Below, piece by piece: positions 12,164 to 44,356 of a DNA stretch of 64,000 nt. Position numbers and translations under genes: made by a program. Positions within the stretch are counted from its first letter, which is position 1, and every line of letters starts with the position of its first letter. A model generated the notes under the pieces. It was not told where the DNA came from and did no database searches. It saw nothing but the letters and a program-made list of their open reading frames with translations. Origin of the DNA: Aromatoleum diolicum (GTDB lineage: Bacteria; Pseudomonadota; Gammaproteobacteria; Burkholderiales; Rhodocyclaceae); assembly GCF_012910955.1 (NCBI RefSeq), contig NZ_WTVQ01000001.1, positions 186,001-250,000 of the forward strand, read 5' to 3'.

Positions 12164-12296
12164 TTGAAAACTCCGGATTGAATCGGTAAGCAGAAAGTGA
12201 GCGGAAAAAGCGTAGCTCGTGATTCTAGCAGTTTTTCGCGGGAGACTCTCGGCAAGGCCACCACCTAAAGGAATGCAACCGGATGCTGCGGTGCAA

Positions 12297-12311
12297 TGGC
12301 GCGGTTCTTGC
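12297..12311 (+). promoter_or_regulatory. Sigma-54 -24/-12 promoter candidate of nifA
   Basis: TGGCGC-N5-TTGC, with the invariant GG and GC twelve bases apart, lies about 40 bp before the nifA ATG. No TGT-N10-ACA site is seen in the ndk-nifA gap; only a GGTGCA half-site (12290-12295) overlaps. This suggests sigma-54-dependent nifA expression, possibly through an activator other than NifA itself. Confidence 0.5.
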
Positions 12312-12350
12312 GGAAGACCCTTGCCCCAACTCGGGAATACGGGATTCACC

Positions 12351-14015
<1,665 letters not shown>

Positions 14016-14870: not shown

Positions 14871-14886
14871 TGTCGCACATGCGACA
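14871..14886. promoter_or_regulatory. NifA upstream activator site (nifB and divergent gene)
   Basis: TGT-N10-ACA with full dyad symmetry: TGTCGCACATGCGACA. It lies about 95 bp upstream of the predicted nifB start site, the normal distance for a NifA enhancer. Confidence 0.82.
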
Positions 14887-14954
14887 TCGTCCGCGAAACT
14901 CGCACTCCCTGAAACATCGTTTATTTTTAATGACTTGCAAGCACACTGAGGCGC

Positions 14955-14969
14955 TGGCACAGGCATTGC
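14955..14969 (+). promoter_or_regulatory. Sigma-54 promoter of the nifB operon
   Basis: TGGCAC-AGGCA-TTGC, an exact -24/-12 consensus. The predicted start is near 14981, giving a 5' leader of about 70 nt before the nifB ATG. Confidence 0.88.
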
Positions 14970-15051
14970 AACGCCATTCGCAAACGCTGCCCCGAGCCGA
15001 ACGACGCGCGCCGGAGCAGCTCACGCCGGATCACTGCGAATGGAGCATTTC

Positions 15052-33278: not shown

Positions 33279-33785
33279 TCACAGCTTGATGCCAAAGGCC
33301 TTGCCGATCGCTTCGGCGGCTTCCGGGCTGTCCCACTCCTTGGCACCATAGACCTTGTGCAGCACCCGTCCTTGCGCGTCGATCAGCAAGGTAAGGGGCA
33401 GTCGGTCGGCACCGAGCATGTTTTCGAGGAACAGCTTGCTGTCGATGAAGTGCGGGAACGACGTGTCGGCCTGTTGCAGGAAGGCCTTGGCACGATCGCT
33501 GTAGTCGTCGGTCGAAATACCGATTACGTTGAAGTGTTTGCCGTGGCGGCGCGCGAGGCGGTCGAGCGATCCCATTTCTTCGCGACACGGGGCACACCAG
33601 CTCGCCCACACATTGATGATCAGCGGCTTGCCGCGGTATTCGGACAGCAGCGTCGAGTTGCCCGACAGGCCCTGCATCGGGGCCTCGCGCAGGATCCCGC
33701 CGACCGGCACCTCGCCCGGCGTGGCGGCTGACGCTGTCGTCGATAGCAGGGACAGGCACAGAAGGAGGGAATAAAGTGTCTTCAT
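33279..33785 (-). CDS. TlpA-like periplasmic thiol-disulfide oxidoreductase
   Basis: 168-aa exported thioredoxin-fold protein. The signal peptide is MKTLYSLLLCLSLLSTTASA; the AhpC/TSA-Redoxin type core has the redox motif WASWCAPCREE and the cis-Pro loop RLPLTLLIDAQG. Such proteins reduce periplasmic disulfides, for example in cytochrome c maturation; the partner here is unknown. The ATG at 33785 is set by the signal peptide. Single gene, divergent from the Anbu operon. Confidence 0.9.
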   Translation of the reverse strand: MKTLYSLLLCLSLLSTTASAATPGEVPVGGILREAPMQGLSGNSTLLSEYRGKPLIINVWASWCAPCREEMGSLDRLARRHGKHFNVIGISTDDYSDRAKAFLQQADTSFPHFIDSKLFLENMLGADRLPLTLLIDAQGRVLHKVYGAKEWDSPEAAEAIGKAFGIKL

Positions 33786-33891
33786 GCGGAAGAGTTTACC
33801 AGCCGATCGCCATTGCTCGACAGGGACACGGCAACCGCCGGCACAATTTCCGCGGCGGGCCGTGCATGCGCCGCACAGCGCCGGAGCGTCA

Positions 33892-33921
33892 CGCACGCCT
33901 TTGGTGCGCATTACTGGTGCA
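33892..33921. promoter_or_regulatory. Two overlapping NtrC-like binding sites upstream of the Anbu operon
   Basis: Against the NtrC consensus TGCACY-N5-GGTGCA, 33905-33921 reads TGCGCA-TTACT-GGTGCA (10 of 12 positions) and 33892-33908 reads CGCACG-CCTTT-GGTGCG (9 of 12). They sit about 50-80 bp upstream of the sigma-54 promoter match, a normal distance for an enhancer. Judged by eye only. Confidence 0.45.
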
Positions 33922-33970
33922 TTTTTCCCATTAGCAGTCTAATACTCTGAAAATACGGCAATCCGCGCAC

Positions 33971-33985
33971 TGGCACAGTATTCGC
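33971..33985 (+). promoter_or_regulatory. Sigma-54 promoter candidate of the Anbu operon
   Basis: TGGCAC-AGTAT-TCGC, with a perfect -24 half and correctly spaced GC in the -12 half (TCGC instead of TTGC). The predicted start is near 33997, 24 nt before the first ATG of the operon. No TGT-N10-ACA NifA site is found upstream. Confidence 0.55.
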
Positions 33986-34020
33986 TGATACTTGTTGAAA
34001 CGTTTCTGGACTGAATCATC

Positions 34021-35457
34021 ATGACGCCGACGTTCTACGACGAGATGCACGATACCGCCGGCACAACCCGGCCGCACTATGCCCACTTCGAAGCCTGGGC
34101 AAACGCCTTGCCGCCCGAGTTGATGGCACGCAAGCGTGCCGAAGCCGACCTGGCCTTTCGCCGCCTGGGCATCACTTTCGCGGTGTATGGCGAGGAAGCC
34201 GGGACGGAGCGGCTGATTCCCTTCGACACCATCCCGCGCATCATTCCCAGCGCGGAATGGAAGACCTTGCGTGCCGGACTGAAGCAGCGCGTCAAGGCGC
34301 TGAACATGTTCCTCGACGATATCTATCACGGGCAGGACATCCTACGCGCGGGCAAGATTCCGCCCGAAGAGGTGCTCAACAACGCGCAATTCCGCCCGGA
34401 GATGCGTGGCTTCAAGGTGCCGAACGGGATCTACGCGCACATTGCCGGGGTCGATGTGGTGCGCGCCGGCGAAGGCGAGTTCTACGTGCTGGAGGACAAC
34501 CTGCGCGTGCCGTCCGGCGTGTCGTACATGCTCGAGGACCGCAAGATGATGATGCGGCTGTTCCCGGAACTGTTCGCACACCAGAAGATCGCGCCGGTCG
34601 AGCATTACCCCGACCTGCTGCTGGAGACGCTGCGTGCGGTGGCTCCCAACGGCGTCGATGATCCGACGGTGGTGGTGATGACGCCAGGGGCGTTCAACTC
34701 GGCCTATTTCGAACACTCCTTCCTCGCGCAGCAGATGGGCGTGGAACTGGTCGAGGGGCGCGATCTCTACATCGACCATGATGTGGTGTATATGCGCACG
34801 ACGCACGGGCCGAAGCGCGTAGACGTGATTTACCGCCGCATCGACGACGACTTCCTCGATCCGGAGGCCTTCCGCGCGGATTCGATGCTCGGCGTGCCGG
34901 GTCTGTTGAAAGCCTATCGCGCCGGCCGGGTGACGCTGTGCAACGCGATCGGCACCGGCGTCGCGGACGACAAGTCGATCTATCCGTATGTCGGCGAGAT
35001 GGTGCGCTTCTACCTCGGCGAGGAACCGATCCTCAACAACGTGCCGACCTGGCGCTGCCGCGAGCGGCATGACCTGAAATACGTGCTGGACCACCTGGCC
35101 GATCTGGTGGTGAAGGAAGTCCACGGCGCCGGCGGCTACGGCATGCTGGTGGGACCGGCGGCGACGAAGGCGGAGATCGAGCAGTTCCGGCAGGCGCTGA
35201 TCGCCCATCCGGAAAAATACATCGCCCAGCCGACGCTCGCGCTGTCGACCTGCCCGACCTACGTCGACAGCGGCATCGCCCCGCGCCACATCGACCTGCG
35301 GCCGTTCGTGCTCTCGGGCAAGGAGGTGTCGCTGGTGCCCGGCGGCCTGACCCGCGTGGCGCTGCGCGACGGCTCGCTGGTCGTCAATTCGTCACAGGGC
35401 GGCGGCACGAAAGATACCTGGGTTCTGGAGAATGGCCATGCTGAGCCGCACCGCTGA
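34021..35457 (+). CDS. Circularly permuted ATP-grasp type 2 protein (Anbu operon)
   Basis: 478-aa member of the circularly permuted ATP-grasp family (DUF404/DUF407), predicted peptide-ligase-like enzymes. Features: ADLAFRRLGITFAVYGE near the N-terminus, the conserved FYVLEDNLRVPSGVSYMLEDR, YRRIDDDFLDPEAFR, and the late KEVHGAGGYGMLVGP loop. It opens the Anbu operon and overlaps the alpha-E gene by 20 bp. Anbu operons pair this enzyme with an alpha-E protein and transglutaminases, suggesting synthesis and removal of a peptide tag; the substrate is unknown. Confidence 0.9.
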   Translation: MTPTFYDEMHDTAGTTRPHYAHFEAWANALPPELMARKRAEADLAFRRLGITFAVYGEEAGTERLIPFDTIPRIIPSAEWKTLRAGLKQRVKALNMFLDDIYHGQDILRAGKIPPEEVLNNAQFRPEMRGFKVPNGIYAHIAGVDVVRAGEGEFYVLEDNLRVPSGVSYMLEDRKMMMRLFPELFAHQKIAPVEHYPDLLLETLRAVAPNGVDDPTVVVMTPGAFNSAYFEHSFLAQQMGVELVEGRDLYIDHDVVYMRTTHGPKRVDVIYRRIDDDFLDPEAFRADSMLGVPGLLKAYRAGRVTLCNAIGTGVADDKSIYPYVGEMVRFYLGEEPILNNVPTWRCRERHDLKYVLDHLADLVVKEVHGAGGYGMLVGPAATKAEIEQFRQALIAHPEKYIAQPTLALSTCPTYVDSGIAPRHIDLRPFVLSGKEVSLVPGGLTRVALRDGSLVVNSSQGGGTKDTWVLENGHAEPHR

Positions 35458-36403
35458 TCATCTTTTCTGGATGGCCCGCTATACCGAGCGGGCCGAGAAT
35501 CTGGCGCGCCTGCTCGACGTCACCTACCAGATGTCGCTGGTGCCGCACGATGCGCAGACCGAGCGCAGCAGCTGGAATGCGGTGCTGGTGCTCAACAGCC
35601 TGGAAGCGCCGTACGCCAAGCGGCACCGCGAAATCACCGCGGCGAACGTGCTGCATTTCATGGTGCGCGACGATACGCATGCTTCGTCGATCTACAGCTG
35701 CCTGCGCAGCGCGCGCGAGAACGCGCATGCGGTGCGCGGCACGCTCACGGCGGAGATGTGGGAGACGATCAACGAGACCTGGCTGCAGGTGAGCAGGCTG
35801 AGCATCGTGGAGATCAACCAGGGCGGCATCGCGGCCTTCTTCGACTGGGTCAAGCAGCGCGCCTCGCTGCTGCGCGGCGCAATGTTCGGCACGATGCTGC
35901 AGGATGAAGCCTTTCAGTTCATCCGCCTCGGCACCCTGCTCGAACGCGCGGACAACACTGCCCGCATCCTCGACGTGAAGTACCACAGCCTGGCCAGCGC
36001 CGGGCAGCAGCAGAGCCAGGAACAGGGCGAAGAGCTGGTCGGGGCCAACGACTTCTACCACTGGGGCGCGCTGCTGCGCTCGGTGTCGGCGTTCGAGGTG
36101 TATCGCAAGGTGTATCGCGACGCCATTACGCCGGAGCGCGTCGCGGAACTGCTGATTCTGCGCGATGACCTGCCGCGCGCGCTGCATTCGTGCCTGCACG
36201 GCGTCGTGACGATTCTCGACCGCGTGCGCAACAACCGGTCCGACGAAACCCTGCGCCGCGCCGGGCAGATCTACGCCTCGCTGCAGTACGGGCGCATGGA
36301 GGACATTTTCGAAATGGGATTGCACGCGTGGCTGGATGATTTCATCGAACGGGTCGGCGATCTGGGCGGGCGCATCAGCAAGGATTTCCTCGTCGGCAGT
36401 TGA
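35438..36403 (+). CDS. Alpha-E domain protein (Anbu operon)
   Basis: 321-aa all-helical alpha-E (DUF403) protein, starting MLSRTADHLFWMARYTERAEN, the family hallmark; the function is unknown but it always accompanies the permuted ATP-grasp. The ATG at 35438 has GGAGA at seven bases; an in-frame ATG at 35432 is the alternative. Its start lies inside the end of the ATP-grasp gene, implying translational coupling. Confidence 0.9.
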   Translation: MLSRTADHLFWMARYTERAENLARLLDVTYQMSLVPHDAQTERSSWNAVLVLNSLEAPYAKRHREITAANVLHFMVRDDTHASSIYSCLRSARENAHAVRGTLTAEMWETINETWLQVSRLSIVEINQGGIAAFFDWVKQRASLLRGAMFGTMLQDEAFQFIRLGTLLERADNTARILDVKYHSLASAGQQQSQEQGEELVGANDFYHWGALLRSVSAFEVYRKVYRDAITPERVAELLILRDDLPRALHSCLHGVVTILDRVRNNRSDETLRRAGQIYASLQYGRMEDIFEMGLHAWLDDFIERVGDLGGRISKDFLVGS

Positions 36404-36480
36404 ATCCGGCGTTTCCCCGCGCACCGCCCTCCGGGGCCGGTCGTACCGACGGCCCGCACATTTTTTTGCGAGCGAAGACC

Positions 36481-37209
36481 ATGACCTATTGTGTTGCGAT
36501 GAACCTCGAGGCGGGGCTCGTCTTTCTGTCCGATTCGCGCACCAACGCGGGCGTCGATCACGTCAATACCTTTCGCAAGATGACGGTGTGGGAACGCACC
36601 GGCGAGCGCGTGCTGGTGATGATGACGGCCGGCAACCTGTCGGTCAGTCAGTCGGTGATCAATCTTCTCAATGAGCACCTTGCCAGTGCCGAATCGCCGA
36701 ACCTCTACAACGCCGCCAACATGTTCGAAGTCGCACGCCGGGTTGGCGAGGCGGTGCGCGAGGTGGACCGACGCGATGCGGCGGCGCTGAAGGAATTCGG
36801 CGTCGACTTCAACCCCTCGCTGATCATCGGTGGCCAGATCCGTGGCGAAGCGCCACGCCTGTTCCATATCTACGCGGCCGGCAATTTCATCGAAACCACC
36901 AACGACACGCCCTACATCCAGATCGGCGAGGCCAAGTACGGCAAGCCGATCGTCGACCGCATCGTCAGGCGCACCACGACACTTTCGGATGGCGCCAAAT
37001 GTGCGCTGGTGTCGATGGATTCCACGATCCGCTCGAACCTGTCGGTCGGCCTGCCGCTCGATCTGTGCGTCATCGAGCGCGACGCCCTCGCGGTGAAGTC
37101 GCATATATCGATCGGCCAGGACAACACCTACTACGCCCAGATTCGCGGCCAGTGGGGCGAGCGGCTGCGAGAGGCGTTCACGGAACTGCCGAATCCCGAG
37201 TGGCTGTAG
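36481..37209 (+). CDS. Anbu, proteasome-like N-terminal-nucleophile protein
   Basis: 242-aa beta-type proteasome homologue (ancestral beta subunit, Anbu). After Met removal the N-terminus would be Thr1 (TYCVAMNLEAG), with Asp17 in LSDSRTNAG and Lys32 in TFRKM matching the Thr/Asp/Lys catalytic set of proteasome subunits. The ATG at 36481 is fixed by this motif. Anbu forms spiral or ring-like assemblies with no AAA+ partner in the operon; in vivo substrates are not established. It lies in the middle of the ATP-grasp/alpha-E/transglutaminase cluster. Confidence 0.92.
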   Translation: MTYCVAMNLEAGLVFLSDSRTNAGVDHVNTFRKMTVWERTGERVLVMMTAGNLSVSQSVINLLNEHLASAESPNLYNAANMFEVARRVGEAVREVDRRDAAALKEFGVDFNPSLIIGGQIRGEAPRLFHIYAAGNFIETTNDTPYIQIGEAKYGKPIVDRIVRRTTTLSDGAKCALVSMDSTIRSNLSVGLPLDLCVIERDALAVKSHISIGQDNTYYAQIRGQWGERLREAFTELPNPEWL

Positions 37210-37261
37210 GCGCCGTGCCGACTCATTCGCCCCCTTGAATTGAAGCAAACGGAGAACTGCC

Positions 37262-40200
37262 GTGTCGATCCACGTCGCCCTGAACCACGTCACGCACTAC
37301 CAGTACGACCGGCAGGTGAACCTCGGCCCGCAGGTGATTCGCCTGCGACCGTGCCCGCACAGCCGCACACGCATCCTGTCGTATTCGCTGCGGGTGCTGC
37401 CGGGAAATCACTTCATCAACTGGCAGCAGGATCCGCAGGGCAATTACCTGGCCCGCCTCGTCTTCCCGGAACCGACGCGCGAATTCCGCGTGGAGGTCGA
37501 CCTGGTCGCCGAGATGGCGGTGCACAACCCTTTCGACTTCTTCCTCGAGCCGGAGGCGGAGGACTTTCCGTTCGCCTACAACGACGCCCAGCGGCACGAG
37601 TTGCAGCCTTACCTGGAGAAGGTCGCGGACAAGGCCGCTGCCGGCGATAAATTCTCCGCATATCTTGCGGGCATTTCGCGCGAAAAACAGCGCACGGTGC
37701 CGTTTCTGGTCGCGCTCAATGCGCAACTGCAGAAGGACATCGGCTATCTGATCCGCCTCGAACCCGGCGTGCAGACGCCGGAGGAAACACTGCAGAAGGC
37801 CAGCGGATCGTGCCGCGATTCGGCGTGGCTGCTGGTGCAGTTGCTGCGCCATCTGGGGCTGGCCGCGCGCTTCGTGTCCGGTTACCTGATCCAGCTGACG
37901 GCCGACGTCAAGTCGCTCGACGGCCCCTCCGGCCCCGAGGCGGACTTCACCGACCTGCACGCCTGGTGCGAAGTCTATTTGCCCGGGGCGGGCTGGGTCG
38001 GACTCGATCCGACCTCCGGCCTGTTTGCCGGCGAGGGCCACATCCCGCTGGCGTGCAGCCCGGAGCCGTCGTCGGCGGCGCCGATCAGCGGGGAGGTCGA
38101 CGAGTGCGAGTGCGAGTTTGCGCACGCGATGAAAGTCGAGCGCGTGTGGGAGGCGCCGCGCGTCACCAAGCCGTACAGCGAGGAACAATGGGCGGCGATC
38201 GAGGCGCTCGGCCATGAGATCGACGCCAAGCTCTTCGGTAGCGACGTGCGCCTGACGATGGGCGGTGAGCCGACCTTTGTCTCGGTCGACGACCCCGATG
38301 GCGAAGAGTGGAACACCGCCGCACTGGGGCCGGCGAAGCGCGTGCTGGCGACCGACCTGTATCACCGGCTGCGCGACAAGTACGCACCGCGAGGGCTGAT
38401 GTTCTTCGGCCAGGGCAAGTGGTATCCCGGGGAGCAGTTGCCGCGCTGGTCGCTCAACGCATACTGGCGGCGCGACGGCGAGCCGATGTGGAGCGACACC
38501 GCGCTGTATGCCGACGAGCGCCACCCGGGGACAGCCGACGCGGCGCTTGCGAATCGCTTCCTGTGCGCGGTGGCCGGGCGCCTGGCGCTGGATCCGAAGC
38601 ATGTCTTCGATGCCTACGAGGACGCCTTGTATTACCTGTGGCGCGAACGGCGCCTGCCGGCGAACGTCAATCCCTTCGACGCGCGGCTCGACGAGCCGAT
38701 GGAGCGCGAGCGCCTGGCGCGCGTGTTCTCACAGGGTTTGTCCAGCGCCGTCGGCGCGGTGCTGCCGGTGGCGAAATCCCCCGCGGGACGATGGATGAGC
38801 GGCCAGTGGTTTCTGCGCAGCGAGCGCTGCTACCTGATTCCCGGTGATTCGCCCCTCGGCTATCGTCTGCCGCTCGATTCGCAGCCCTGGGTGCGCAAGA
38901 CCGATTTCCCCTATCTGCATCAACCCGACCCGACACAGAGCTTCCCGCCCTTGCGCAGCTACGCCGACCTGCGCCAGGATGCGGCTTCGGGTGCCGCCAT
39001 ACGGCTTACCGACGCGCACCCGGCAGCCGGCAGCGAAGCTTCGTCCGGACGCGTGCCGCAGGCGGGGGAGTCGGCAGACTGGGTCACGCGCACGGCGATG
39101 TGCGCGCAGGCGCGCGAGGGCACGCTGTATATCTTCATGCCGCCTACGGACGCACTCGACGACTATCTCGACATCGTCGCCGCCGTCGAGGCCACCGCGG
39201 CAGAGCTGCAGCAGCCGGTGATTCTGGAAGGCTACGAGCCGCCGTCGGACCCACGCATCACGCACTTCCGCATCACGCCCGACCCCGGCGTGATCGAGGT
39301 GAACATCCACCCGGCGAGCAACTGGGATGAACTCGTCGAGCGCACGACGCACCTCTACGAAGCGGCGCGCGAGTCGCGGCTGTCGACCGAGAAGTTCATG
39401 ATCGACGGTCGCCACACCGGCACCGGCGGTGGCAACCATTTCGTGCTCGGCGGCGCCACGCCGAACGATTCGCCCTTCCTGCGGCGGCCGGATCTGCTGC
39501 GCAGCCTGGTGAGCTACTGGCATAACCACCCCTCGCTGTCGTATCTCTTTTCCGGACTCTTCATCGGACCGACCTCGCAGGCGCCGCGCATCGACGAGGC
39601 GCGCAACGATTCGGTCTATGAGATCGAGATTGCCTTCCGCGAGATGGAGCGGCTGCGCGGTCTCAGTGATCAACCCGCCGGGCAGTGTCCGCCGTGGCTG
39701 GTCGACCGGCTGCTGCGCAACCTGCTCATCGACGTCACCGGCAACACGCACCGTGCCGAGTTCTGCATCGACAAGCTGTACTCGCCGGACACCGCGACCG
39801 GCCGCCTCGGCCTGCTCGAATTCCGTGCCTTCGAGATGCCGCCCCACGCGCGCATGTCGCTCACCCAGCAGTTGCTGCTGCGCAGCCTGATCGCGCGCTT
39901 CTGGCAGCAACCCTATGCGCCGCCGCGGCTGGTGCGCTGGGGCACCGAACTGCACGACCGCTTCCTGCTGCCGCACTTCGTCGAGCAGGATTTTGCCGAC
40001 GTGATCGAGGAGATCAATGCGTTCGGCATTCCGATGCAAACGGAATGGTTCGCGCCGCACTTCGAGTTCCGCTTCCCGAAAGTCGGCGACTTCGCCGTGC
40101 GCGGCATCGAAGTGGATCTGCGGCACGCCCTCGAACCGTGGCATGTGATGGGCGAGGAAGGCGCCGCGGGCGGTGCCGTGCGTTATGTCGACTCCTCGCT

Positions 40201-40621
40201 CGAACGCCTGCAGGTCAAGGTCCGCGGCATGCCGCCCGACCGCTACGCGCTGACGGTCAATGGTCACCCGCTGCCGCTGCAAACGACCGGCACCGTCGGC
40301 GAGGCGGTGGCCGGCGTGCGCTACCGTGCATGGCAACCGGCCTCGTGCCTGCATCCGACCATCGGCGTCGATGCGCCGCTGGTGTTCGACCTGGTCGATA
40401 CCTGGATGCAGCGCTCGCTGGGCGGTGCCCAGTACCACGTCGCCCATCCCGGCGGGCGCAACTACGACAGCTTCCCGGTCAATGCCTTCGAAGCGGAAAG
40501 CCGCCGCCTGGCACGCTTCTTCCGCTTCGGTCACACGCCGGGGGCAGGCACTTTTGCACACCTGCCTCCTTGCGAACCCAACGCCACCTTCCCCTTCACG
40601 CTAGACTTGCGCGCATTCTGA
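37262..40621 (+). CDS. Transglutaminase-like protease fused to DUF2126
   Basis: 1119-aa cytoplasmic protein, start GTG at 37262 with GGAGA upstream. An N-terminal beta domain (about 1-100) and a transglutaminase/papain-like core carry Cys184 (GSCRDSAWLL), His233 (DLHAWCEVYLP) and Asp249 (GLDPTSG), the expected triad. From about residue 325 the large DUF2126 region follows (LTMGGEPTFVSVDDPDG; IDGRHTGTGGGNHFVLGG). Presumed peptidase or amidase of the predicted tagging system. Largest gene of the window. Confidence 0.93.
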   Translation: MSIHVALNHVTHYQYDRQVNLGPQVIRLRPCPHSRTRILSYSLRVLPGNHFINWQQDPQGNYLARLVFPEPTREFRVEVDLVAEMAVHNPFDFFLEPEAEDFPFAYNDAQRHELQPYLEKVADKAAAGDKFSAYLAGISREKQRTVPFLVALNAQLQKDIGYLIRLEPGVQTPEETLQKASGSCRDSAWLLVQLLRHLGLAARFVSGYLIQLTADVKSLDGPSGPEADFTDLHAWCEVYLPGAGWVGLDPTSGLFAGEGHIPLACSPEPSSAAPISGEVDECECEFAHAMKVERVWEAPRVTKPYSEEQWAAIEALGHEIDAKLFGSDVRLTMGGEPTFVSVDDPDGEEWNTAALGPAKRVLATDLYHRLRDKYAPRGLMFFGQGKWYPGEQLPRWSLNAYWRRDGEPMWSDTALYADERHPGTADAALANRFLCAVAGRLALDPKHVFDAYEDALYYLWRERRLPANVNPFDARLDEPMERERLARVFSQGLSSAVGAVLPVAKSPAGRWMSGQWFLRSERCYLIPGDSPLGYRLPLDSQPWVRKTDFPYLHQPDPTQSFPPLRSYADLRQDAASGAAIRLTDAHPAAGSEASSGRVPQAGESADWVTRTAMCAQAREGTLYIFMPPTDALDDYLDIVAAVEATAAELQQPVILEGYEPPSDPRITHFRITPDPGVIEVNIHPASNWDELVERTTHLYEAARESRLSTEKFMIDGRHTGTGGGNHFVLGGATPNDSPFLRRPDLLRSLVSYWHNHPSLSYLFSGLFIGPTSQAPRIDEARNDSVYEIEIAFREMERLRGLSDQPAGQCPPWLVDRLLRNLLIDVTGNTHRAEFCIDKLYSPDTATGRLGLLEFRAFEMPPHARMSLTQQLLLRSLIARFWQQPYAPPRLVRWGTELHDRFLLPHFVEQDFADVIEEINAFGIPMQTEWFAPHFEFRFPKVGDFAVRGIEVDLRHALEPWHVMGEEGAAGGAVRYVDSSLERLQVKVRGMPPDRYALTVNGHPLPLQTTGTVGEAVAGVRYRAWQPASCLHPTIGVDAPLVFDLVDTWMQRSLGGAQYHVAHPGGRNYDSFPVNAFEAESRRLARFFRFGHTPGAGTFAHLPPCEPNATFPFTLDLRAF

Positions 40622-40645
40622 CCGGTCCTGCTCCGCCACCCGAAG

Positions 40646-43240
40646 ATGCCGCACACGCTGCTTTCGCTTTACTCCCGCCCGACCGGCCGCTACGACGAGT
40701 TGCTGGCCGCCGGCGGGGGTTTGCGGGCGCACTGGCGACCGCTGTTCGACGCCCTCAACGCCTCGACGCCGGATCAGATGCGCGCGCGGCAGATGTTCGT
40801 GTCCGAGCGCATCCGCGAAAATGGCACGACCTACAACATCTACGCAGATCCGCGCGGCACCGACCGCCCGTGGACGGTCGATCCGCTGCCCTTCATCCTG
40901 CCGGCGGCCGAATGGGCGCACATCGAGCACGCCGTGAGCCAGCGCGCGGCACTGCTCGATCGTGTGCTGGCCGATCTCTACGGCCCGCAAACGCTGATCC
41001 GCAGCGGCGCGCTGCCGGCCGCGCTGGTGTACGGTCACAACGGTTTCCTGTGGTCCTGCCAGGGCAGCCGGCCGCCCTCCGGGCATTTCCTGCACGTGTA
41101 CGCCGCCGACCTCGCACGTTCGCCGGACGGCAATTGGTGGGTGATCGCCGACCGCACGCAAGTCCCGTCCGGGGCCGGCTACGCGCTGGAAAACCGGCTC
41201 ATCGTGTCACGGCTGTTTCCCGATCTGTTCCGCGATCAGCAAGTGCATCACCTGGCGGCCTTTTTCCGCCATCTGCAGGACAGCCTCACCCACTGGGCGC
41301 CGGTGGACGCCGGAGAGGCGCCGTTCGTCGTGCTGCTGACGCCGGGGCCGTACAACGAGACGTACTTCGAACAGTCGTACCTGGCTCGCTATCTGGGCTT
41401 TCCGCTGGTCGAGGGGCAGGATCTGACGGTTCGCGGCAACACGGTCTACCTCAAGACACTGACCGGCCTGCGACGCGTGCACGCGATCCTGCGCCGGCTC
41501 GACGACGACTACGCCGACCCGCTCGAACTGCGCGGCGAATCCTCGCTCGGCGTGCCGGGTCTGGCCGAGGCGGCGCGCGCGGGCCGCGTGCTGCTCGCCA
41601 ATGCGCTGGGCAGCGGCGTGCTGCAATCGGCAGGCTTGCTCGCCTTCATGCCGGAACTGGCCGAACATCTGCTCGGCGAACCGCTGGCGATGCAGGCGGT
41701 GGCCAGCTGGTGGTGCGGCGAAACGCCCGCGCTCGACTATGTCACCGAACATCTGGATACGCTGGTGATCAAGCCGGCCTATCCGTCACAGCACATGGAG
41801 CCGGTATTCGGACGCACCCTCAGCGCCACCGAGAAGGCCCGCTGGATCTCGCGCCTGCGTCAGCGCCCGCATGCCTACGTCGGACAGGAGCTGGTCGAGT
41901 TGTCGCAGGCGCCCACGCTGCCGCCGGCGACTTCGTCGGGCCTCGACCGCAGACTGCTGTCGCGCGCCATCGGCCTGCGCGTGTATGCCGTCATTACCCC
42001 TGACGGCTGGCGCGTGATGCCCGGCGGCCTGACCCGCGTGGCCGGCGGCGGCGAAGTCGACATCCTGTCGATGCAGCGCGGCGGCTCGTCGAAAGATACC
42101 TGGGTGCTGTCGGACCTGCCGGTGAGCCAGTTCACGATGTTGAAAGGCGAACTCGGCGCCCGCGACATCGTCCGCGCCACGCCGCAACTGGCCAGCCGCA
42201 CGGCGGAAAACCTGTTCTGGATGGGGCGCTACGGCGAGCGCGTGGAAAACACCGCGCGACTGCTGCGCATGGCCTGCGAGCGCCTGTTCGAGGAAGGCGA
42301 CTCGTCCGCGCCACGCAAGCATGCGAAGGCCGGTCAGCCCCTTGTCAGCCCGCCGGGGCAGCTCGCGGCGGCACTGCGTTATTGCGAACTGTTCGGTTTG
42401 CTGCCCGACGAGAAAGGGCGATCGACCGGGCGAAGACTGGTCGAGGGCGTGCACAGCAGCGAACTCGCCAGCAGCCTCTCCAATACCCTGCGCCGTACCC
42501 TGTGGGCCGCGACCCAGGTACGCGACCGCTTGTCGCTCGATCACTGGCACTCGCTCAACCGCCTGCAGGACATCCTGCGCCACCCGCCCAGCGCCGGTGT
42601 CGCCCTCCCCAGCCTGCCGGTGACGCTCGACCGCGTGTTGTTGAACTGTGTCTCGCTGGCCGGATTTGCGATGGACGACATGACGCGCGACGCCGGCTGG
42701 CAATTCCTGATGATGGGGCGGCGCATCGAACGCATGCAGTGTCGCGCGCTCGCCGTGGCGCGCTTTCTCGACGACTGCATCGGCAACCCGGGTGGCATCG
42801 AGAGCCTGCTCGAACTGGGCGACAGCACCGAAATCTATCGTCAGCGCTACCTGCGCACGCCCGACCTGCTGCCGACGCTCGACCTCATCGTCTTCGATCC
42901 GGACAACCCGCATTCGGTGATGTTCCAGGCCGAAATGCTGTTGCGCTACCTCGAACCGCTGCAGCGCCAATGCTTTGAAAGCACCGACGTGGAGGTTGAA
43001 CTCGACATCGCGGCCTTCCGGCGTGCGAGCGAAGCGGTGAGCGGATTCTCGCTGCTCGATCTGGAACGCGGACGTCCGGAGCCTTGCGCGACGGAGCAGC
43101 AGTGCATCAATTGCGGCGGCTGCACCGAACTCGCGGGCCACCTGCGGCTGCTGCACGATGCCGCCGGCGTACTGTCCAATCGCATCGCGGCGCGTTTCTT
43201 CACGCACGTTGTCGCCACGTCGCGCGTCATGTCGGCCTGA
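40646..43240 (+). CDS. Fused ATP-grasp/alpha-E protein
   Basis: 864-aa protein combining a second permuted ATP-grasp (about 1-480; ISRAPTL-like end replaced here by LSQAPTLPPATSSG, with GRTLSATEK before it) and a second alpha-E domain (about 500-840; SRTAENLFWMGRYGERVENTARLLR). It is thus a one-chain version of the two genes at 34021-36403. A Cys-rich patch near the C-terminus (CATEQQCINCGGC) is unusual for the family. It starts 24 bp after the DUF2126 gene. Confidence 0.9.
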   Translation: MPHTLLSLYSRPTGRYDELLAAGGGLRAHWRPLFDALNASTPDQMRARQMFVSERIRENGTTYNIYADPRGTDRPWTVDPLPFILPAAEWAHIEHAVSQRAALLDRVLADLYGPQTLIRSGALPAALVYGHNGFLWSCQGSRPPSGHFLHVYAADLARSPDGNWWVIADRTQVPSGAGYALENRLIVSRLFPDLFRDQQVHHLAAFFRHLQDSLTHWAPVDAGEAPFVVLLTPGPYNETYFEQSYLARYLGFPLVEGQDLTVRGNTVYLKTLTGLRRVHAILRRLDDDYADPLELRGESSLGVPGLAEAARAGRVLLANALGSGVLQSAGLLAFMPELAEHLLGEPLAMQAVASWWCGETPALDYVTEHLDTLVIKPAYPSQHMEPVFGRTLSATEKARWISRLRQRPHAYVGQELVELSQAPTLPPATSSGLDRRLLSRAIGLRVYAVITPDGWRVMPGGLTRVAGGGEVDILSMQRGGSSKDTWVLSDLPVSQFTMLKGELGARDIVRATPQLASRTAENLFWMGRYGERVENTARLLRMACERLFEEGDSSAPRKHAKAGQPLVSPPGQLAAALRYCELFGLLPDEKGRSTGRRLVEGVHSSELASSLSNTLRRTLWAATQVRDRLSLDHWHSLNRLQDILRHPPSAGVALPSLPVTLDRVLLNCVSLAGFAMDDMTRDAGWQFLMMGRRIERMQCRALAVARFLDDCIGNPGGIESLLELGDSTEIYRQRYLRTPDLLPTLDLIVFDPDNPHSVMFQAEMLLRYLEPLQRQCFESTDVEVELDIAAFRRASEAVSGFSLLDLERGRPEPCATEQQCINCGGCTELAGHLRLLHDAAGVLSNRIAARFFTHVVATSRVMSA

Positions 43241-43242
43241 AA

Positions 43243-44178
43243 ATGCGCTACCACGTCGCCCACACTACCGATTACGACTATGAAGCGCCGGTGCAGACGG
43301 CGCGGCATCTGCTGCACCTCGCCCCGCGCGACTGCGCGTGGCAGCATGTCGAAACACACACGCTGCGCATCAAACCGATGCCGACAAGCCAGGCTGACGG
43401 CGAGGACGCGTTCGGCAATCCGGTGCACCGCATCGAATTGGCCGTCCCGCATGAGCACCTGCATGTCACGAGCGAAGTGACACTGTGCGTCGAGCCGCGC
43501 CCGTGGCACGGCGGCGTCGAGCCCCAGGCATCCTGGGAAAGCGTCCGCGAGGCGCTGCGCTACCATGCCAGGCCGGTCGCGGACGCGACGATCGATGCAC
43601 AGCGCATGCTCTTCGAATCACCCGGGGTGCGCGTCAAGCGCGAACTGGAGGAGTACGCGACGCCCTCCTTCGCCCCGCGGCGGCCGCTGCTGGACGCCAC
43701 CCGCGACCTGATGGAGCGCATCCACCGCGAGTTTCGCTACGATCCCGAGGCCACCGAAGTCGGTACCTCGGTGCTCGAAGTGCTGCAGAAGAAGCACGGC
43801 GTGTGTCAGGACTTTGCGCACCTGATGATTGGCTGCCTGCGCTCGCAGGGGCTGGCGGCGCGCTACGTGTCGGGCTACCTGCGCACCGATCCCCCGGCGG
43901 GACAGCCGCGCCTGGTGGGCGCCGATGCGTCGCACGCGTGGGTGGCGGTTTTCTTTCCGCAGCTGGGCTGGATCGAGTTCGATCCGACCAACAACTGTCT
44001 CGCCGACGAAAGCCATATCGTCCTCGGCTGGGGGCGCGACTTTGGTGACGTGTCGCCGGTCCGCGGCGTCATTCAGGGTGGCGGCGAACACACGCTGGAA
44101 GTTGGCGTGACGGTGACGCCGCTCGACGACGACGCGGAGGCTCCCGCCGCAGCCGCGCCTGCACGCAAGCGGCGCTGA
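43243..44178 (+). CDS. Stand-alone transglutaminase-like protease
   Basis: 311-aa transglutaminase-superfamily protein with an N-terminal beta domain (MRYHVAHTTDYDYEAPVQTA) and triad Cys188 (HGVCQDFAHLM), His231 (ASHAWVAVFF) and Asp247 (FDPTNNC). Second such enzyme in the operon, two bases after the fused ATP-grasp/alpha-E gene. Last gene before the nifE control region; the tail is Ala/Pro-rich and basic. Confidence 0.92.
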   Translation: MRYHVAHTTDYDYEAPVQTARHLLHLAPRDCAWQHVETHTLRIKPMPTSQADGEDAFGNPVHRIELAVPHEHLHVTSEVTLCVEPRPWHGGVEPQASWESVREALRYHARPVADATIDAQRMLFESPGVRVKRELEEYATPSFAPRRPLLDATRDLMERIHREFRYDPEATEVGTSVLEVLQKKHGVCQDFAHLMIGCLRSQGLAARYVSGYLRTDPPAGQPRLVGADASHAWVAVFFPQLGWIEFDPTNNCLADESHIVLGWGRDFGDVSPVRGVIQGGGEHTLEVGVTVTPLDDDAEAPAAAAPARKRR

Positions 44179-44199: not shown

Positions 44200-44238
44200 T
44201 GTCGCCTTTCGTACAAACGCCCTGTCTCAAGCCCGACA
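44200..44238. promoter_or_regulatory. Tandem NifA upstream sites of nifEN
   Basis: Two TGT-N10-ACA sites: TGTCGCCTTTCGTACA (44200-44215) and TGTCTCAAGCCCGACA (44223-44238), offset by 23 bp, about two helical turns, placing them on the same DNA face. Both are 50-90 bp upstream of the promoter. Confidence 0.78.
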
Positions 44239-44288
44239 CGGCGTAGCGGCGCCCCCCCAACACACTGATTCAAAACGGCTTTCATAAC

Positions 44289-44303
44289 TGGCACCGTTCG
44301 TGC
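44289..44303 (+). promoter_or_regulatory. Sigma-54 promoter of the nifEN operon
   Basis: TGGCAC-CGTTC-GTGC: perfect -24 half and correct GC spacing, with one change (GTGC) in the -12 half. The expected start is near 44315, giving a leader of about 42 nt. Confidence 0.82.
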
Positions 44304-44356
44304 AATGGGATTCCTGTCCCCGACACTTGTGCCACAAGCGCAGACAGGAAGCCACC

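Follow-up and report, generated by a model that had tools for sequence, protein, structure and literature searches.

A predicted sigma54 promoter with an NtrC-type enhancer precedes a six-gene peptide-ligase and Anbu operon of Aromatoleum diolicum and recurs in many relatives

The proteasome-like protein Anbu is described as up in nitrogen-starved Pseudomonas putida in PMC6376114 and PMC5666114, both citing Hervas 2008 (publications are cited throughout for the passages excerpted from them). The P. putida Anbu operon was attributed to NtrB/NtrC in PMC7801951, where PP_2686-2688 of the wild type were up 11- to 15-fold. When nitrogen was depleted, the promoter of PP_2688 (ATP-grasp) was induced 3.7-fold, whereas the PP_2685 (Anbu) promoter was nitrogen-agnostic (PMC8050072). 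At the transcript level, PP_2688 and PP_2685 were both up on nitrate versus ammonium (log2 3.99 and 4.44; PMC8050072) and PP2685 was up 11.1-fold under nitrogen limitation (PMC3325844), but PP_2685 changed only 1.12-fold in the wild type and 1.45-fold in an rpoN mutant in PMC7801951; thus, Anbu follows the ATP-grasp module in two data sets and not in the third. In the same rpoN mutant, PP_2686, PP_2687 and PP_2688 were still up 14.16-, 16.02- and 19.61-fold, like the urt genes (PMC7801951, Table 2), indicating either that this mutant is not a true null or that a different promoter is at work in P. putida.

In Burkholderia cenocepacia H111, genes I35_5080-83 changed by log2 -6.0 to -9.4 in an ntrC mutant and are listed among the common sigma54/NtrC targets of PMC5491218, the text of which tables the top 150 genes only. 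Additionally, the proteasome-type protease COG3484 falls in a sigma54-linked cluster of groups (PMC12316311), and the domains of this system co-vary with urea-metabolism domains in marine metagenomes (PMC3597751). A P. phymatum paper on NifA and a Bradyrhizobium paper on RpoN also mention ATP-grasp, but we could not connect these mentions with the present family.

Here we analyse a 64,000-nt stretch of A. diolicum, the window, in which the sequence before a six-gene peptide-ligase/proteasome-like operon very probably forms a true switch for nitrogen starvation that many relatives share.

The operon and the elements upstream of it

The operon comprises six genes within 34021-44178, preceded by a divergent neighbour that lies outside it:

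33279..33785, minus strand: TlpA-like redoxin, divergent neighbour (PF08534)
34021..35457, plus strand: circularly permuted ATP-grasp ligase, first gene (PF14403, 559.5 bits)
35432..36403, plus strand: alpha-E protein (PF04168, 326.6 bits)
36481..37209, plus strand: Anbu, proteasome-like Ntn hydrolase (ORF opens at 36400; likely start 36481, MTYC...)
37262..40621, plus strand: transglutaminase-like and DUF2126 amidoligase protein (PF08379, PF01841, PF09899)
40646..43240, plus strand: ATP-grasp/alpha-E fusion protein (PF14403 and PF04168)
43243..44178, plus strand: small transglutaminase-like protein, last gene (PF08379 and PF01841; likely ATG at 43243, by reading)

The occurrence of Anbu together with ATP-grasp, alpha-E and transglutaminase genes makes this an Anbu operon as defined in PMC6376114. 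The Anbu product scored 19.8 bits against PF00227, under the cut-off of 22.4, and its translation has Thr1, Asp17 and Lys32 as candidate catalytic residues, Thr1, Asp17 and Lys32(33) being those named for Anbu of Y. bercovieri (PMC6376114). NCBIfam assigned no family to the five operon proteins submitted. The nearest named relative of the ATP-grasp protein is from Aromatoleum tolulyticum (91%). A record titled Mycobacteriaceae bacterium (L228) contains an ATP-grasp/alpha-E/transglutaminase-DUF2126 operon 74% like that of the window, and is probably a mislabelled assembly.

The mechanical call of the redoxin ORF (33279-33911) is over-extended and, as listed, overlaps the enhancer sites described below. 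Judging from a signal-peptide-like N-terminus, the gene probably starts at 33785, which would make these sites intergenic, within the 235 bp (33786-34020) that separate the minus-strand redoxin gene from the plus-strand operon. The candidate elements are:

33872..33888, plus strand: third NtrC-like site, weak, CGCACAGCGCCGGAGCG, lying 20 bp ahead of the main palindrome
33892..33908, plus strand: NtrC-type palindrome, CGCACGCCTTTGGTGCG, main enhancer candidate, with a perfect GCAC-N7-GTGC core
33905..33921, plus strand: second NtrC-like palindrome, TGCGCATTACTGGTGCA, overlapping the first (10/12 consensus positions)
33971..33986, plus strand: sigma54 -24/-12 element, TGGCACAGTATTCGCT, a conserved block in the genus alignment

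The initial annotation had placed a -24/-12 match before the first ATG, two overlapping NtrC-like sites upstream of it and no NifA site. Indeed, 33971-33986 contains this match, which lies 50 bp upstream of the first ATG (34021), with GG and GC correctly spaced and 10/12 consensus positions; its -12 box is TCGC instead of TTGC, one position off, which we counted against a sigma54 reading. Likewise, no TGT-N10-ACA sequence, the NifA upstream activating site, occurs in 33786-34020. Both NtrC-like sites are present, although they fared differently in an alignment of five Aromatoleum sequences, window included. From otherwise diverged sequence, the -24/-12 block and the 33892 palindrome stand out, the latter with GCAC-N7-GTGC at the equivalent position in 5/5 sequences, whereas conservation of the 33905 site was not found in this alignment. 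The alignment, therefore, does not support the idea that both overlapping sites are in use. The left half, GCAC, of the third site is aligned in 5/5 sequences, and this site (33872-33888) is a possible second dimer site. In one relative (L033), a perfect core lies 22 bp upstream of its main NtrC site.

The palindrome at 33892 begins 129 bp upstream of the first ATG, and its centre is 72 bp upstream of the sigma54 GG; among 71 relatives with an NtrC site of at least 10, the median distance from the best palindrome to the GG is 62 bp. In relatives anchored on the sigma54 match, 14 of 72 pairs of NtrC-like sites are 13 bp apart, an excess that may arise from the palindrome overlapping itself, since two copies at this offset have TGCA in common. 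Nine of the 72 pairs, from related loci, are 31 bp apart, or about three helical turns, a spacing that may be real.

A composite pattern (GCAC-N7-GTGC, 48-78 bp, TGGCAY-N5-TYGC) matched the 5.15-Mb genome once, at the present site, and its reversed control did not match at all; however, the spacing range was picked after the window had been seen, so that the conservation tests below are a fairer test of chance. The pattern TGGCACNNNNNTYGCW had 23 matches in the genome versus 8 for the reversed pattern. The NtrC pattern by itself is weak evidence because it is common in the genome, with 457 + 460 matches at up to two mismatches against 206 + 198 for the control. We chose consensus strings and weights manually, with the NtrC string taken from the initial annotation and a sigma54 string that agrees with the one printed in PMC5491218.

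Conservation upstream of orthologous ATP-grasp genes

Searches for relatives of Anbu were positive for 76/150 genomes from the order, 82/199 from the family and 36/143 from the class. Upstream regions were taken from part of these relatives, as 120 stretches, 80 named loci and 40 further ATP-grasp starts; stretches and named loci together yielded 154 usable regions, 145 of them non-redundant, of 250 bp upstream of ATP-grasp genes.

A sigma54 score of at least 10 was reached in 52.4% of the 145 regions, compared with 1.9% of shuffled sequences and 1.2% of windows drawn at random from those loci, and an NtrC palindrome of at least 10 in 57.2%, compared with 4.9% and 3.0%, respectively. Both motifs at this threshold were found in 55/145 regions, against 1/2900 shuffles and 3/2897 random windows, and the pair was absent from the other 90. 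Comparison with orthologous operons, to which the initial annotation had pointed, thus shows that the motifs recur upstream, and their frequency relative to shuffles and random windows led us to reject a chance match. In the relatives, the sigma54 element lies mostly 40-80 bp upstream of the ATP-grasp start.

Within the family of the window, 42/49 loci contain a sigma54 match of at least 9 at -35 to -95, and an NtrC-like site at -100 to -180 scores at least 9 in 47/49 and at least 10 in 35/49. At the expected places, the rest of the order gave 12/21 for sigma54 (at least 9) and 8/21 and 5/21 for NtrC-like sites of at least 9 and 10; outside the order, the three loci with ATP-grasp first had neither a sigma54 match nor an NtrC-like site there (0/3 each, at 9 or 10).

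We also examined an order sample, consisting of 57 of the 64 genomes with a close ATP-grasp relative and leaving out 14 of 78 genomes, more distant or fragmentary. A sigma54 match of at least 10 was present in 42/57 genomes and 24/28 families, and was accompanied by an upstream NtrC site of at least 10 in 23/57 genomes and 17/28 families. With an NtrC-like site of at least 9, a loose test passed by 24% of random windows, the figures were 33/57 genomes and 22/28 families. Random windows combined a sigma54 score of at least 10 with NtrC scores of at least 9 and 10 in only 6/2893 and 2/2893 cases, respectively. In nine of the 57 genomes, the sigma54 element is present but no upstream NtrC-like site reaches a score of 9. 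No sigma54 match was found at the expected place in 3/3 tested genomes of one family (f8), nor in four of the 14 left-out genomes (L269-L272), and in a record from Aeromonas a sigma54 match of 11 goes with NtrC-like sites that score no more than 9, plus a more distant one that scores 10. Several loci (L080-L084, L106, L108, L239 and L276) keep a TGGCAC-type element with TTGA or TTGT in place of TTGC in the -12 box; these may be variants or products of decay, and were scored negative. Conservation of the motifs upstream of orthologues is, therefore, widespread and not universal.

Regulators and rival readings of the promoter

The genome encodes NtrC (694.6 bits) and contains two RpoN genes (C54:23067-24482 and C55:40529-41917; 467.6 and 432.4 bits). 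We consider it highly likely that phosphorylated NtrC activates a sigma54 promoter at 33892-33986 that drives the six-gene operon, in line with the sigma54/NtrC reading of the initial annotation; conservation, resemblance to the glnK- and amtB-type promoters of the genome and agreement with the nitrogen-limitation induction in P. putida and the ntrC/sigma54 dependence in B. cenocepacia all speak for such control, the P. putida rpoN-mutant data set being in conflict with it. On nitrogen starvation, NtrC would occupy the 33892-33908 palindrome, probably aided by a weaker site next to it. Bound NtrC would then oligomerise and reach, by DNA looping, sigma54 RNA polymerase waiting at 33971-33986. 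A single transcript would start near 33997 and extend over all six genes, from that for ATP-grasp to that for the small transglutaminase, and its induction by nitrogen shortage would be expected in A. diolicum.

Seven stretches were taken for comparison within the genome, and two of them, both at nitrogen genes, show a sigma54 and NtrC arrangement like that of the operon. One precedes the gene directly before a PII gene (sigma54 match 11, NtrC site 11) and the other an AmtB-like gene, identified by reading of its translation (sigma54 match 11, NtrC sites of 10). The second PII gene had no such promoter in the stretch taken, and the ntrB-ntrC stretch contains an NtrC site and a sigma54 match in a different order.

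That the sigma54 promoter answers to another enhancer-binding protein, and hence to a different signal, is unlikely. About 26 further strong matches (E < 1e-50) in the genome reach the NtrC-type AAA region, and the nine order-sample genomes with an element and no NtrC-like site agree with such an activator; nevertheless, the palindrome conforms to the NtrC consensus, is found together with the element in 17 of 28 families at 10 or more positions, and occurs in the glnK- and amtB-type promoters as well, and the B. cenocepacia cluster requires ntrC (PMC5491218). The operon sits between nif blocks, as the initial annotation had it, with nifB on one side and nifE on the other. Its enhancer is, however, of a different kind, and NifA control was rejected for lack of an upstream activating site in the intergenic stretch, whereas the nif promoters of the window have NifA sites: the nifB promoter (14871-14970) contains a sigma54 match at 14955 and a NifA site at 14871, and the region upstream of nifE (44200-44304) a sigma54 match at 44289 and NifA sites at 44200 and 44223. 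An NtrC-type activator, presumably NifA, is encoded near nifB (12219-14015, plus strand; C58:198849-199688; 321 bits).

Less probable still is that the operon is read mainly from an ordinary sigma70 promoter, the -24/-12 match being a relic or a product of chance. The stretch contains one sigma70-like match (33995-34022; 9/12 positions, where shuffles give 0.3), and induction persisted in the P. putida rpoN mutant (PMC7801951). However, this match runs into the start codon and so cannot start a message ahead of the ATG, and motif conservation far exceeds that in shuffles and random windows. Finally, it is hardly credible that the sites serve the divergent redoxin gene, with which they share the 235-bp intergenic stretch, since the -24/-12 element is oriented to the operon and its counterparts keep their place before ATP-grasp starts.

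The module probably under control and its known counterparts

We compared loci with and without Anbu. The motif pair was no less frequent in the second group, being present in 54/120 regions with Anbu downstream and in 16/25 non-redundant loci without Anbu in reach, that is, within a flank of up to 5 kb, some contigs ending earlier; with the stricter NtrC threshold, the counts were 42/120 and 13/25. A whole-genome search found Anbu to be absent from 21 of 22 genomes, that of L212 containing it elsewhere. Seventeen of these genomes, of unstated completeness, represent 17 of the 26 loci without Anbu in reach and were chosen after the promoter had been seen, whereas the other five are complete genomes of the order sample picked only for a close ATP-grasp relative and no Anbu. 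The count of 18 of 21 is consequently biased by selection, 16/25 loci and 3/5 complete genomes being the fairer figures. Of the five genomes picked blind to the promoter, three have both motifs, a fourth has an NtrC site of 11 with the TTGA variant, and one has neither.

Conversely, Anbu genes that do not follow ATP-grasp had the motif pair in 0/44 cases within 250 bp upstream, a span that would miss a promoter further away, and a lone sigma54 match of at least 10 in one case. Four loci were set aside from this count (L072, L102, L114 and L128), their upstream ATP-grasp being cut, broken or at the stretch edge; L102 was already counted among the ATP-grasp operons. Directly before Anbu within ATP-grasp operons, the pair was found in 0/120 cases. 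In the genus of the window, genomes G246 (L062) and G283 (L055) contain Anbu with no ATP-grasp in the preceding 6 kb and no such promoter. Of nine loci with ATP-grasp directed away from Anbu, two have a sigma54 match of 10 pointing towards ATP-grasp.

A replicon of B. cenocepacia CMCC(B)23006 contains three ATP-grasp/alpha-E operons (L285, L291 and L292); it is labelled a plasmid, of 3.2 Mb, and the partners of the three operons differ. Its Anbu operon (none of at least 9) and a second operon were without matches, whereas in the third, L292, a sigma54 match and an NtrC site both score 11. L292 encodes, in order, ATP-grasp, alpha-E, a weak transglutaminase match, transglutaminase-DUF2126 and the fusion, with no Anbu within the 12.5-kb stretch, and from this gene order it appears to be the counterpart of I35_5080-83. 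The contents of two of these three operons are united in the operon of the window.

Together, these results indicate that the nitrogen-controlled unit is most likely the ATP-grasp/alpha-E peptide-ligase module, with transglutaminase and DUF2126, and that Anbu is most likely an optional passenger whose control is set by its position. We lean, with some reserve, towards a broader reading in which this module, and not Anbu, is the member of the regulon; Anbu would have repeatedly joined and left the promoter, and the window would represent the union, under a single NtrC promoter, of two modules that form separate operons in the B. cenocepacia replicon. Repeated joining and leaving would direct the search for the function of the system to a peptide or isopeptide product that is tied to nitrogen and that Anbu would optionally hydrolyse. 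Following published proposals, the role of the module is most likely in a product of this kind, made or recycled when nitrogen is short.

The initial annotation had the Anbu system induced by nitrogen limitation, linking protein or peptide turnover to nitrogen supply. Nitrogen control, known from P. putida, and the link to nitrogen supply are supported, but control seems to go with ATP-grasp/alpha-E instead of Anbu, and protein turnover is unsupported because the Anbu proteins tested in PMC6376114 showed no activity on the peptide substrates used. In the open-licence papers searched, we met no statement linking the promoter to the ATP-grasp module instead of Anbu; nitrogen control itself is already published, and the new element is that emphasis moves away from Anbu and onto the peptide-ligase module. 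Presence of the switch in most sampled families of the order suggests that the system is needed in nitrogen shortage, and switch-bearing operons without Anbu, together with Anbu genes without the switch, tell which proteins to assay first.

Within the same genome, the closest likeness is with the glnK- and amtB-type promoters, which also have a -24/-12 element with NtrC palindromes upstream, although with wider spacing and serving PII and ammonium-transport genes. In P. putida KT2440, PP_2688-PP_2685 has ATP-grasp at one end, as here, and Anbu at the other, and comprises four genes instead of six; it is induced by nitrogen limitation, attributed to NtrB/NtrC, and its ATP-grasp-gene promoter responds (PMC8050072), whereas one rpoN-mutant data set contradicts sigma54 dependence (PMC7801951). 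Finally, although it has no Anbu among its four genes, unlike the operon of the window, I35_5080-83 of B. cenocepacia H111 shares with it ATP-grasp (DUF404/407), alpha-E (DUF403), a transglutaminase and a large transglutaminase (PMC5491218).
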